Below are positions 10,349-15,357 of a stretch of 64,000 bases of DNA, in pieces. Each line of letters starts with the position of its first letter. The first letter of the stretch is position 1. The notes beneath the pieces are model-generated. The model searched no databases. It saw only the letters and a program-made list of their open reading frames with translations, and was not told where the DNA came from. The stretch comes from an uncultured Ignavibacteria bacterium (GTDB lineage: Bacteria > Bacteroidota > Ignavibacteria > SZUA-365): the NCBI GenBank assembly GCA_913061095.1, contig CAJXVM010000025.1, forward strand, positions 1 through 64,000, given 5' to 3'. The translations under genes were made by a program, and so were the position numbers.

Positions 10349-13300
10349 ATGGTGGCACCGTTGTTTTTTGCCGCGGGGAAATTGAGAGGGCATGCGGCCG
10401 TCCTCCTGCTGCTGTTCGTCGTTTTCACGACAGGCACTGCCCAGCAGCATATCGGCATCAATCACCTGCGCAGCGACAGCGGGCGCATCCATCTCACGTT
10501 CACACTTTCCTGTGACAATACGCGTCTGATGAATGTCGATCCGACGTCGCTGCGAATCCGGGAAGACGGGCTGTCGGTGACGGAATTCACGTTGCGCGCT
10601 CCGGCAGCTGCCCGCGCTCCGGTCTGCGCCATCCTCGTGTTCGATGCAAGCGGGAGCATGGGAGCCGAGGGCGTCGCTGGTGCGAAGAACGCGGGGCATG
10701 CCTTCATCAACATGATGGATGGAATGAAGGACCGTGCCGCGATCATGTGGTTCGGTGACACCGTGACGCTCGCACAGCACCTGACGACCGACAGAACGGA
10801 TCTCCATGCGGCGATGGACCGGATGCCGCGGGGCGGCGGCACGGCCCTGTGGGATGCCTGCTTCCAGGCACTGCAGCTGCTCGGGGGCATGCCTGACAGC
10901 GTGTATCGCTCCCTGATCGTGCTGTCAGACGGAACGGACAATTCCAGTTCATTCACCGGCGGGGCGATCACCAACGAAGCCCGCCGCCTCGGAGTGTATA
11001 TCAATTCCGTAAGTCTCTGGTCTGGCTGGAGCGGGCTCAGTTCCGTCGCTCAGATGACAGGAGGACTCAGCTTTTATACGGACGATCCTGATGACCTTGC
11101 GGGATATTACACCGAGATATTCAGGGAAATGCGAGACGCATACGGCGAATTCTTCCTGACGTGGAAGAAACGTACCTGCGATGACGGCGAGAATCATACC
11201 GTACAGCTCGATGTGGATAGTCCCTGCAGCAGCTCATACACCGCGACCGGTGTGTTTCGCGCCGATCTCGACAGCGCGTCGTTCGCCAGCATGCCCATGC
11301 ATCTCGGCAGCACGTTCGTGCAGGGCGGGCAGGAGGCAACATCGACACTCTGGCTCGATGCGCCGGTGGATACGACACTTCTGTATGACTTTTCGTTTCG
11401 TCTGCTTTTCGATACGGACAGACTGCAACTGCAGCAAATCGATGCACCTGCAGGGACATTGCTTGAAGGATTCCAGCTGTCTTTTACCAACACGGCATTC
11501 GGAGCCGAAGTGACGGTGAGCGGCACTACGCTGTTCAGCGGCATCGGCGCCATGGCGGATCTGACATTTCTTGCCCAGAAGAAACTGGATACGGCCTACG
11601 TATCGGTGGATATCGTCGACTGGGATTTCGAAGCGGGCTGTCTTCGGCCTGCTGTCAAAGCCGGACACATCGGGATTTTTCCTCCCACGCCACACCCGTT
11701 GATCGCCTGCGAGATCTTTGCTCCCGAGGTGCTGGCCTGGGAGCGTTCCGCCGGTGACTATGCGCCAAATCCGTTCTCCGTGTCGGCCAGATTTCTGAAT
11801 GCCGGCGGAATGACGGCGCGGAATGCGCGCTTCGCGATCGCGTATGACAGCACAAAGCTCAGGCGTATCCTGCCTGCGGAGGATACGATCGCATACGCCG
11901 CGGCGGATATCACGTCGGGAAGTCACGCTGCGGTGGCATGGGATCTCTGGACGCCCCGCCTCCTGTATGATGACACGACTGATGTCATGATCACGGCCAT
12001 GTTTGACAATCACCCGCCGGTGACGTGCAGAAAGACGATTGTCATTCCACGCGCCGATGCGGTGCTGACCTGTCATCTTCAAACACCGGAGTTCTGGGCC
12101 GATCCCGCGCGCGGCCGTTTTGGTCCCATGCCGTTTTCCGTCAACGCAGTCATCCGCAACATCGGCGGGCGGAACGCGAATCAGATTACGGCGGGCATCG
12201 TGCTGCCGGACAGCATGACACTCGCGGGCGCTGACGCGCCGGACCGCTTCGTGAAAATACCCATCCCATCCGAACTCGCTCCCGGTGATTCCGCCGTGGT
12301 CGAGTGGCTTCTGCAGCATCCGCCGGTGCGGCATGCACAGTCTCCCGAAGTTCAGGTGATTGTCCAGTCATCCTCCACGGCGGCTTCATCCTGCACCGCA
12401 CCGGTCAATCTTCCCGCCATCGACCTGTCACCGTTTCATTTTACGTTGACGCGGAAGGGTGGTATCGTTCTTTGTGAAGGCGATTCCGTGCTGCTTGATG
12501 CGAGCAGCGGGCGTGACAGCTGGCGCTGGAATACCGGTGACAGCACGCGCGTCATCGCGGTGCGCGAGGAAGGGATCTATTTCTGTGTGGTCCGTCTCGG
12601 CAATCGTACCGGCTATTCCGATACAGTGCGTGTGACGGTGCGTGAAGCACCGACGCCGGTGCTGACAGTCGACGGATCCCTGCCGTTGTGTGCCGGAGAT
12701 TCGCTGCTGCTCGATGCCGGGGAAGGCTTTGCCGGATACGCCTGGAATACGGGGGCCGCGACACGCATGCTCACGGTCATACTGCCCGGTGCCTACTGGG
12801 TTCATGTCACGGATGATGCAGGATGCACGGGTTCTTCCGATACGGTGCAGGTGAACGTCGTGTCCCCTCCGCGCAGACCGGAAATCACCCGCATTGATGA
12901 CAGGCTGGTCGTCGACTCCGCGGGAGCGCTGCAGTGGTACCGTGACGGACGCGCCATGGAAGGGGAGACGTCACGGATGCTCGCACTTGTACGCACGGGC
13001 ACATATCATGTTCACGTGACGGATGCAAACGGCTGCGCGGCGAAATCGGAGCCTTTTGACGTCAGCGTGCTCGACATGAAGCATCTTCCTCCCGCCATCC
13101 GCTCGTTCAATGTGTTTCCGAATCCCACGGGAGACGTGCTGCAGCTGCGGCTCACACTCCGTGATGCGGAGGCGGTATATGTCAGCATCACCGACATGCT
13201 CGGACGCGTCGTCATCCGGCAGACCCTGCATCCCGCATGGCAGCATCGAAGCAGTCTCGACATGGGATCACTCCTGCCCGGCGCCTACGTGCTGCATGTC

Positions 13301-13366
13301 GATGCGGCGTCGATGCACATTTCCCGCATGGTGATTCGGAAGCAAGCTGGGTCGCTCGGTAGATGA
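10349..13366 (+). CDS. Secreted von Willebrand factor A protein with T9SS sorting domain
   Basis: The 1005-residue protein has a signal peptide ending near TGTAQQ, an N-terminal extension, a VWA domain with an intact metal-ion-dependent adhesion site (DASGSMG, about residues 98-104), several beta-rich Ig/CARDB-like modules, two short repeats containing WRWNTG and YAWNTG (about 720-850), and a type A T9SS sorting domain (last 80 residues, from FNVFPNPTGDVL). It should cross the outer membrane through T9SS and be attached to or released from the surface. No Shine-Dalgarno site precedes the ATG; TTG at 10382 (codon 12) would give a cleaner signal peptide and fits the promoter position better. 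A longer paralogue lies at 37668-41597. Ligand and function are unknown. Confidence 0.88.
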   Translation: MVAPLFFAAGKLRGHAAVLLLLFVVFTTGTAQQHIGINHLRSDSGRIHLTFTLSCDNTRLMNVDPTSLRIREDGLSVTEFTLRAPAAARAPVCAILVFDASGSMGAEGVAGAKNAGHAFINMMDGMKDRAAIMWFGDTVTLAQHLTTDRTDLHAAMDRMPRGGGTALWDACFQALQLLGGMPDSVYRSLIVLSDGTDNSSSFTGGAITNEARRLGVYINSVSLWSGWSGLSSVAQMTGGLSFYTDDPDDLAGYYTEIFREMRDAYGEFFLTWKKRTCDDGENHTVQLDVDSPCSSSYTATGVFRADLDSASFASMPMHLGSTFVQGGQEATSTLWLDAPVDTTLLYDFSFRLLFDTDRLQLQQIDAPAGTLLEGFQLSFTNTAFGAEVTVSGTTLFSGIGAMADLTFLAQKKLDTAYVSVDIVDWDFEAGCLRPAVKAGHIGIFPPTPHPLIACEIFAPEVLAWERSAGDYAPNPFSVSARFLNAGGMTARNARFAIAYDSTKLRRILPAEDTIAYAAADITSGSHAAVAWDLWTPRLLYDDTTDVMITAMFDNHPPVTCRKTIVIPRADAVLTCHLQTPEFWADPARGRFGPMPFSVNAVIRNIGGRNANQITAGIVLPDSMTLAGADAPDRFVKIPIPSELAPGDSAVVEWLLQHPPVRHAQSPEVQVIVQSSSTAASSCTAPVNLPAIDLSPFHFTLTRKGGIVLCEGDSVLLDASSGRDSWRWNTGDSTRVIAVREEGIYFCVVRLGNRTGYSDTVRVTVREAPTPVLTVDGSLPLCAGDSLLLDAGEGFAGYAWNTGAATRMLTVILPGAYWVHVTDDAGCTGSSDTVQVNVVSPPRRPEITRIDDRLVVDSAGALQWYRDGRAMEGETSRMLALVRTGTYHVHVTDANGCAAKSEPFDVSVLDMKHLPPAIRSFNVFPNPTGDVLQLRLTLRDAEAVYVSITDMLGRVVIRQTLHPAWQHRSSLDMGSLLPGAYVLHVDAASMHISRMVIRKQAGSLGR

Positions 13367-13381
13367 CGCGATACATGAAAA

Positions 13382-13407
13382 AATCCCCCGCCAACCGGCG
13401 GGGGATT
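13382..13407 (-). terminator. Intrinsic terminator of the octaheme cytochrome gene
   Basis: A perfect 11-bp GC-rich stem (AATCCCCCGCC, loop AACC, GGCGGGGGATT). Read on the minus strand it is followed by a run of T (complement of the A-run at 13378-13383). It may also end the convergent VWA gene. Confidence 0.85.
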
Positions 13408-13436
13408 CCTGGAGTAAAGGGGCGAACTGAGACCCG

Positions 13437-15185
13437 TCAGTTCATCACCACCATTTTCCTGCTGAGCGACATCTCCTCGAAGGAGATGACGCAGAAGTAC
13501 ACGCCGTTCTGCAGCGGTGAAGAATCGAAGGCGATTTTGTGTGCGCCGGCATCGAAGCGGCTTTCGCGCGTCAGCGACTGCACCGCGCGTCCGCGCGCGT
13601 CATAGACGTTCATCGTGACCATGCCGCTGCGCGGCAGGGAGAAGTTCAGGACGGTCTGTCCCGTGCTGGGATTCGGGAAAGTCTGACCGATCGTGAACAT
13701 GAAGGGAGTGCTCGGATCTTCCGCCGATGTGGCGATGCCGCGGAGCGTCTGCGCTTCCTGCTCGCTGTATCCGAGTTCCTCGAAAGGCATCACGCCTTCC
13801 GGCGTATGGCAGTCGGTGCAGGTCAGTCCCTCTCGCACGGTGCCGTGCCCGGGATTTCCCCACATCTCATCCCATTTCCACTCATACTCTGCGGTGTAGT
13901 TGCCGTCGTTGTCGAGCGGGAAACCAAAGCGTGCCGCGGTCAGTTTGGCGCCAGTGCGGATCGCGGCGTCGATCTTCGCTTCCATATCCTCGATGCTGGA
14001 GGATTCGGGCGAACCGAACACCATGCCGAGCTTGAGGGGAATGTACACGCCGGTGCTCTTGTCGACAGGCACATATGCGCGCGTCAGCTTGAACGGATGG
14101 ATCTTTCCGTCTTCACGGGAGCCCAGCGGTACGACATGGACGTGATCAACCTTGCCGTTGAACCACTTGTAATGCGGACGGGTCGGCTCGAGGAAATCCA
14201 GCTGGAAACTCCACTGTTTAAACGAGCCGTTTGCCATGACCTTCACGGGCGTGTCGAAACGCTTGTTTGTCATTCCCTTGTGGAACGGAACGTGACAGGT
14301 GCCGCAGTCCATTTTCGCGTAATGTGCATTGAGCACCGATGCATTGTCGACCTCGGCATGCGGCTCCGCGGTATGGCAGTTCTCACAGCGGTTTTTCATC
14401 AGCACGTTGGCGTTGAGTTCGTCGCGCGCGACGAGAGCCGGATCCGGACGGCTGAAGGCGATCTTGTGATTCTCGGTCGCATGGCAGGTGCTGCAGGTGA
14501 GTCCCTTGTCGTAGTGCAGATCGTCGACCAGGTAATCCAGTCCGCGCTTGAAGGTGTATCCACCCCCGTTGTAGCTGTGACAGCGGCTGCAGGCTTCGGC
14601 GGAGGGCACGCGCGTGATACTGGCGCTGGTGACCTTCAGATCGTCGCCGGAGGGATAGGGAAGGACTTTTTTCCCGTTGCCATTCGTATAGGAAAGCCGC
14701 TTGCCGGCGGCGTCAATTTCAACACCGTTGACCCTGTACGTGCTCGAATGGCAGAGCAGACAGTCGATACGCTTCCACGCGTCATCGGGATTTGCCGCAC
14801 CCTCGTCGGGATTGAACTCGGCGTTGCTGATATGACAGCGGCTGCATCCACCGGGAAGGGTGCCATCGAAAAAATTGCCGAGCCAGTTGATGGCGACCAC
14901 CGAACCGGGCAGGCCGCAGTAGCGCGTCCATTTGCCGTTTTCCTCATTGATCAGCTCAATTCCCTTATCATCGTACACGTCCTTGCCCCAGCCTTTGAAC
15001 TTGTAGTGCACGGTCTGCATGATCTCCATGGCTTTGGCCTTGGCGTCGAACTTCAGTGCGCCACTGTGACAGGGGACGCAGCTTTCCGCGCCATTGTACG
15101 ATGACATTTCGGGGTGCTGAGCGGATACCGTGCCGGCAAGCAGCAGCACGAGAATGCCCGGAAAAACGGTGTTCCAACATTTCAT
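13437..15185 (-). CDS. Octaheme cytochrome c with T9SS sorting domain
   Basis: The start (15185) was chosen because it begins a signal peptide (MKCWNTVFPGILVLLLAGTVSA); a longer frame to 15239 lacks one. The 582-residue protein has eight CxxCH haem motifs: CVPCH (36-40), CSRCH, CLLCH, CSRCH, CSTCH, CENCH, CGTCH and CTDCH (456-460). Haem count, spacing and the TVHYKF segment after haem 1 recall the octaheme tetrathionate reductase/hydroxylamine-oxidoreductase group, but I cannot assign a substrate. The last 80 residues (from FTIGQTFPNPSTGQTV) are a type A T9SS sorting domain ending in the usual KMVV segment. A cytochrome exported by T9SS would sit on the cell surface and could take part in extracellular electron transfer (inference). 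It is monocistronic, with its own promoter, operator-like dyad and terminator. Confidence 0.9.
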   Translation of the reverse strand: MKCWNTVFPGILVLLLAGTVSAQHPEMSSYNGAESCVPCHSGALKFDAKAKAMEIMQTVHYKFKGWGKDVYDDKGIELINEENGKWTRYCGLPGSVVAINWLGNFFDGTLPGGCSRCHISNAEFNPDEGAANPDDAWKRIDCLLCHSSTYRVNGVEIDAAGKRLSYTNGNGKKVLPYPSGDDLKVTSASITRVPSAEACSRCHSYNGGGYTFKRGLDYLVDDLHYDKGLTCSTCHATENHKIAFSRPDPALVARDELNANVLMKNRCENCHTAEPHAEVDNASVLNAHYAKMDCGTCHVPFHKGMTNKRFDTPVKVMANGSFKQWSFQLDFLEPTRPHYKWFNGKVDHVHVVPLGSREDGKIHPFKLTRAYVPVDKSTGVYIPLKLGMVFGSPESSSIEDMEAKIDAAIRTGAKLTAARFGFPLDNDGNYTAEYEWKWDEMWGNPGHGTVREGLTCTDCHTPEGVMPFEELGYSEQEAQTLRGIATSAEDPSTPFMFTIGQTFPNPSTGQTVLNFSLPRSGMVTMNVYDARGRAVQSLTRESRFDAGAHKIAFDSSPLQNGVYFCVISFEEMSLSRKMVVMN

Positions 15186-15316
15186 AGCTGAATATCCTTT
15201 GTGAGAGGTGCGATTATGGAAAGGGGTAACAGGTGACAATAGAAATAGTTGGTAATAGCAAGAATTGATGGAAATAAATATCCGCTTCGTGCGGATGATG
15301 CGGCATGCTCTATTTA

Positions 15317-15331
15317 GTTGCTACTAGCAAC
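15317..15331. promoter_or_regulatory. Operator-like palindrome at the cytochrome promoter
   Basis: GTTGCTA-C-TAGCAAC is a perfect 7-bp inverted repeat around one base. It overlaps the -10 box (15329-15334) and the expected transcription start, the place for a repressor site. Confidence 0.5.
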
Positions 15332-15357
15332 ATATAGCGCTGTTACGTAAAAGTCAA
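15329..15357 (-). promoter_or_regulatory. Promoter of the octaheme cytochrome gene
   Basis: On the minus strand: TTGACT (15357-15352), a 17-bp spacer, TATGTT (15334-15329). The start codon is about 140 bases downstream. Confidence 0.65.

Follow-up and report, generated by a model that had tools for sequence, protein, structure and literature searches.

The window, that is, the whole stretch of 64,000 nucleotides analysed here (contig CAJXVM010000025.1 of an uncultured Ignavibacteria bacterium), harbours a gene that encodes an octahaem cytochrome with a C-terminal T9SS sorting domain. The coordinates given in the original prediction are correct, and the gene is located on the minus strand (15185..13437), the plus-strand reading being ruled out by two stop codons. 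The features are listed below; apart from haem motif 2, for which the position in octahaem tetrathionate reductase (OTR) is given, the haem motifs are entered on the basis of the motif count.

13374..13412, minus strand: intrinsic terminator (-25.1 kcal/mol, z -5.05) with a T run at its end
13437..15185, minus strand: octahaem cytochrome gene, 582 aa, ATG at 15185, stop codon at 13437-13439
13440..13685, minus strand: T9SS type A C-terminal sorting domain, residues 501-582 (PF18962, TIGR04183, structural matches)
13740..15116, minus strand: octahaem OTR-type core, residues 24-482 (match to 1SP3)
13806..13820, minus strand: haem motif 8, CTDCH (456-460)
14292..14306, minus strand: haem motif 7, CGTCH (294-298)
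14373..14387, minus strand: haem motif 6, CENCH (267-271)
14481..14495, minus strand: haem motif 5, CSTCH (231-235)
14547..14549, minus strand: Lys213, aligned with the haem-ligand lysine of OTR
14577..14591, minus strand: haem motif 4, CSRCH (199-203)
14748..14762, minus strand: haem motif 3, CLLCH (142-146)
14832..14846, minus strand: haem motif 2, CSRCH (114-118), at the site that in OTR holds the Lys-ligated catalytic haem (PMC11024163)
14916..14918, minus strand: Cys90, candidate active-site cysteine
15066..15080, minus strand: haem motif 1, CVPCH (36-40)
15120..15185, minus strand: putative signal peptide, residues 1-22, probable cleavage between VSA and Q (read from the sequence)
15248..15262: operator 2, GTTGGTAATAGCAAG, imperfect copy within the leader at a distance of 69 bp from operator 1
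15317..15331: operator 1, GTTGCTACTAGCAAC; overlaps the start region and the last bases of the -10 box
15329..15357, minus strand: promoter conserved in four species, -35 box TTGACT (15357-15352), -10 box TATGTT (15334-15329), spacer 17

All eight predicted CxxCH motifs were counted in the protein, whereas 20,000 shuffles of it yielded a mean of 0.02 and a maximum of 2 motifs. Moreover, several cytochrome domains were matched by Pfam and NCBIfam. The signal peptide that had likewise been claimed is probably present: the hydrophobic N-terminus reads MKCWNTVFPGILVLLLAGTVSA followed by Q, and an N-terminal signal peptide is also clear by eye in the orthologues from three genomes of the same genus. 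In one of these orthologues (genome G003, L024/L011) ACG replaces the ATG start codon of the others, which reflects either a sequencing error or an unusual start; the ribosome-binding region is conserved.

The promoter and both palindromes (TTGCTANTAGCAA) are kept in four species, and the surrounding DNA is not conserved. We regard the promoter as real on the grounds of this conservation and not of the consensus scan alone, which found 1 promoter with 1.1 expected. One palindrome had been noticed before, and the second, imperfect copy at 15248-15262 was found here. At one mismatch or less, TTGCTANTAGCAA occurs at just these two sites in the whole genome, which rules out a genome-wide repeat; a local accident is ruled out by the conservation in four species. 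Strong hairpins 3' of the gene are also present in three other species. Thus, the proposal of a stand-alone regulated unit with promoter, palindrome and terminator is supported by the four-species conservation, by the genome-wide uniqueness of the palindrome and by the z score of the terminator.

A conserved operon with the neighbouring genes was not found, and the upstream SDR/DUF2867 gene is not adjacent in the relatives. The gene convergent with the octahaem gene (window positions 10349-13366) encodes a VWA-domain T9SS protein, homologues of which (36-42% identity) are located within about 10 kb of the octahaem gene in three relatives.

OTR-like core and T9SS tail

The closest solved structure is OTR of Shewanella oneidensis (1SP3), which was matched at E 4.2e-14 by phmmer with the single sequence and at E 1.6e-93 with a profile built on 62 relatives. 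An AlphaFold2 model computed from 62 relatives (mean pLDDT 80, pTM 0.73) aligned with 1SP3 over 373 residues at Z 24.1 and an rmsd of 3.4 (VIA-align), and Foldseek matched the model to the OTR fold at E 9e-19. This comparison of a predicted structure with octahaem reductases, which the original prediction had proposed as a check, identifies an OTR-type octahaem protein with 1SP3 as the best match. However, the score with TIGR04315, the family of octahaem OTR proper, is about 105 bits (104.9, and 99.8 in a second search) and thus below the curated cut-off of 375, so that we consider the protein a relative of OTR and not a member of OTR proper. The same genome also encodes a proper OTR (G000:C14; 583.7 bits with TIGR04315) and a second OTR relative (G000:C29), the tail being absent from both. 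A further protein with eight CxxCH motifs (L298:13491-14774, G000:C8) shows weak similarity to hydrazine dehydrogenase (96.7 bits against a cut-off of 900).

OTR reduces tetrathionate, nitrite and hydroxylamine, its second haem being catalytic and ligated by a lysine in place of histidine, and the physiological role of the family is cryptic (PMC11024163). Lys213, which aligns with this lysine (GGDAVKHG in 1SP3) and is invariant in 62/62 aligned relatives, is the predicted ligand of catalytic haem 2. Three positions ahead of its lysine OTR has an aspartate (GGDAVK), in place of which the octahaem protein has a tyrosine (Y210). Six distal, non-motif histidines are invariant in the alignment of the relatives (H60, H224, H240, H276, H288 and H447), where OTR has seven; this pattern is consistent with bis-His haems, and His24 might, as a guess, be the seventh. 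The candidate Cys90 is a cysteine in 45 of the 62 relatives, a tyrosine in 13 and an asparagine in 4, and its alignment to a cysteine of 1SP3 is uncertain.

The type A sorting domain at the C-terminus proved to be genuine. Placed at residues 503-580 by Pfam and NCBIfam, it exceeds the curated cut-offs of both Por_Secre_tail PF18962 (36.9 bits, cut-off 27) and TIGR04183 (31.9 bits, cut-off 23). The modelled tail resembles that of the gingipain RgpB (C-terminal domain 7pq4; Foldseek E 9e-4), a known T9SS signal, as well as the CTD of mirolase (8qb1; Z 8.8). The tail also hit numerous beta-sandwich proteins in the structure library; these hits stem from a widespread fold and were disregarded. The genome is competent for T9SS, as it encodes both SprA (1003 bits) and the sortase PorU (974 bits); similar tails are present on well over a hundred further open reading frames. 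Among the multihaem proteins seen, with about half of the genome scanned directly, no other carries a sorting tail. The tail is in frame and of full length in all four species that possess the gene, and it evolves faster than the core, with non-synonymous codons amounting to 34/82 in the tail and 72/459 in the core.

The T9SS transports folded proteins, so that the haems could be attached in the periplasm prior to export. Given the export tag, the octahaem cytochrome should be located at the cell surface.

Distribution and phylogeny

In a search of 100 relatives, the gene was present in 3/4 other species of the genus, in all cases with the tail and with a core identity of 80-84%, and was not found in the other genera of the family. 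A class-wide search of 391 genomes otherwise returned only distant relatives (35-37%). Likewise, a scan by sequence pattern across some 85,000 species genomes yielded 80 loci, a few of those lacking the tail being cut by contig ends; the sorting tail occurs in only two, both of this genus. In a sample of the phylum, an OTR-family protein is encoded in 57/395 genomes, and 29 further loci either stop soon past the final haem or close with a membrane anchor. Tails are consequently not a general feature of OTR relatives, since they are confined to this genus among the loci examined. In a Clostridia MAG, an OTR-type octahaem protein (L099:5965-7503) continues beyond its final haem with an additional, unrelated domain of some 90 residues.

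Phylogenetically, the proteins with the tail group in a single clade with full support, the stem of which is very long (3.26 changes per column). This clade lies apart from four other OTR-like clades, and its sister group is not resolved on so long a branch. The octahaem protein thus represents, as judged from its sequence, a new and deep branch of OTR-like octahaem cytochromes outside OTR proper, and the tail was, as far as can be seen, gained once, in one genus of Ignavibacteria.

Shared operator, MarR-type gene and conduit-like operon

When family members were searched with TTGCTANTAGCAA, matches were obtained in two places: the promoter of an operon that encodes a tetrahaem protein together with a porin-like protein, and the gap between a MarR-type gene and the gene for class I fumarase. 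An operator matrix trained on the octahaem sites only was used to scan 2.13 Mb of the genome. The octahaem sites ranked first and second, followed by the site before the operon on L160 (G000:C33), which scored 17.6 bits versus 14.1 bits for the next. The operon site is identical to one of the training sites; with this training site left out it was still third at 16.3 bits, the next site scoring 14.5 bits. The same site precedes the orthologous conduit-like operon in two relatives. These two relatives lack the octahaem gene; among the species that possess it, the sharing of the operator was seen in this genome, the one in which the conduit-like operon was located. The fourth-best operator-like site (L229:2025, G000:C2; 14.1 bits) is located 41 bp before a gene for a secreted protein of 151 aa, for which no match was found in Pfam or NCBIfam; this gene is a possible further member of the regulon.

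The operon is arranged as follows.

L160 5963-9932 (G000:C33), directly after nuo-like genes: tetrahaem c554-like protein, 436-aa porin-like protein, 11-haem protein, 5-haem protein

The secreted porin-like protein displays 130 amphipathic-strand windows, whereas its shuffles gave a mean of 67 and a maximum of 111, and it has no sequence match in Pfam, NCBIfam or PDB. The 5-haem protein contains the lipobox SACSS. Gene order and haem counts fit the layout of a porin-cytochrome conduit, and the operon may encode such a conduit, possibly of a new type. Porin-cytochrome conduits and an association with electrodes have been reported in Ignavibacteria (PMC4245776, PMC7399161).

The MarR-type gene is present in 11/12 family genomes (G000:C14:76648-77103, L193, and L190-L200); it is divergent from the gene for class I fumarase and adjoins that for a sodium/solute symporter. 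In the eight MarR-gene promoters displayed, the site is found at a fixed place directly after the -10 box and scores 11.9-20.5 bits, that of this genome being the weakest (11.9). This pattern is apparently that of an autoregulated MarR-family regulator, and the MarR-type protein probably controls both the octahaem gene and the conduit-like operon.

Proposed surface reductase, alternatives and known systems

Taken together, these data suggest that an OTR-like octahaem cytochrome has turned into a reductase of the outer surface that is exported by the T9SS, fed by a conduit and controlled by a MarR-type protein, a reading to which we assign a probability of roughly one half. The protein would be exported by Sec and loaded with haem in the periplasm. 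The T9SS would then recognise the C-terminal domain and pass the folded holo-protein through SprA, whereupon PorU would cleave and anchor it; SprA and PorU are encoded in the genome, the export itself being presumed. At the surface, the octahaem cytochrome would take electrons from the putative conduit, consisting of the periplasmic 11-haem protein, the porin-like protein and the 5-haem lipoprotein. Here the sharing of the operator is observed, and barrel, lipoprotein state and electron flow are predicted. Electrons may then proceed along the bis-His haems and reach haem 2, the catalytic haem with the presumed lysine ligand, where a small soluble external acceptor could be reduced, for instance an oxidised sulfur or nitrogen species; tetrathionate is not to be assumed as the substrate from the family name. 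As to control, the MarR-family protein encoded divergently from class I fumarase would bind TTGnTAnnAGCAA next to the -10 box. The conserved sites are observed, binding and the sign of control are conjectural, and the position of the operator next to the -10 box renders repression more likely.

The more specific proposition, that the T9SS brings a fully haem-loaded, catalytic multihaem reductase to the cell surface, where it completes an outer-membrane electron conduit as terminal enzyme, all under a single MarR-type regulator, we rate slightly short of even odds. With regard to the original prediction, the observation stands and the interpretation holds in part, namely for the OTR type, the T9SS tail and the regulated unit. 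The role in external electron transfer that it had envisaged gains support from the operator that the octahaem gene shares with the conduit-like operon and the MarR-type gene, as far as sequence can tell.

The main rival, which we deem unlikely on balance, is that catalysis has been lost as in MmcA and that the protein acts as a surface relay or store of electrons linking the conduit to external acceptors such as minerals or humics. The very long stem branch of 3.26 changes per column would fit such a loss, as would the replacement of the OTR aspartate by Y210, and MmcA, itself a relative of OTR, works as an electron conduit; however, haem motif 2 and the lysine are kept here, whereas MmcA lost both (PMC11024163).

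Less likely still, and in our view improbable, is a non-respiratory function in which reactive species of nitrogen or sulfur are reduced or detoxified by the protein on the outside and the MarR-type protein senses the stressor. MarR proteins often sense reactive nitrogen- or sulfur-type compounds, which we counted in favour of this explanation. The activity of OTR on nitrite, hydroxylamine and tetrathionate (PMC11024163) would agree with it as well, but the shared operator links the protein to a respiratory-type multihaem operon directly after nuo-like genes, and the MarR gene sits between fumarase and solute symporter.

That the octahaem cytochrome stays periplasmic with its C-terminal domain unused for export, as the two homologues without tail in the same genome might suggest, is very improbable, given that the tail exceeds the curated cut-offs, is modelled as a T9SS CTD fold and is kept in all four species despite its faster change, in a genome with SprA, PorU and well over a hundred such tails.

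Electron export on the Bacteroidota/Ignavibacteriota side of the tree is poorly understood. Ignavibacteria have been found on anodes (PMC7399161) and increased in Fe(III)-dosed sludge (PMC11495043). If the surface-reductase reading is true, the T9SS would represent a second route, besides surface lipoproteins, by which respiratory cytochromes reach the outside of Gram-negative cells, and, provided that it exports a multihaem reductase in holo form, proteins tagged with a sorting domain should be considered alongside lipoproteins when outer-surface cytochromes are sought. Moreover, the operator common to the regulator, the putative conduit and the surface enzyme defines a concrete, testable gene set. 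A literature search returned no paper naming both multihaem cytochromes and the T9SS, though differently worded ones, or ones beyond the literature covered, may exist. New here are the fusion confined to a single genus, the deep separate clade and the operator that ties the octahaem gene to the conduit-like operon and the MarR-type gene.

Like OTR of S. oneidensis (1SP3, TIGR04315), the octahaem protein has eight CxxCH motifs, the fold over 373 residues and the lysine of the catalytic haem, and it is predicted to be secreted; it differs in that it shares only 25% identity in the structural alignment and carries a T9SS tail, which OTR lacks. MmcA of Methanosarcina is likewise related to OTR and serves extracellular electron transport (PMC11024163), yet it is archaeal, contains seven haems, has lost motif 2 and the lysine, and has no T9SS. 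The other OTR-like clades, comprising a Geobacteraceae type, a type of ~640 aa from Zixi-, Calditri-, Ignavibacteriota and others, and a Kryptoniota/Acidobacteriota type, share eight haems, the invariant lysine and about 25-35% identity with the tagged proteins; however, none of those examined has a sorting tail, and they form separate well-supported clades in the tree. With the Pcc/Mtr conduits the system has in common a multihaem protein presumably destined for the cell exterior, and in this genome an operon of that layout has the operator of the octahaem gene. In contrast to these conduits, in which the surface cytochrome is a lipoprotein, the additional cytochrome would here arrive via the T9SS.
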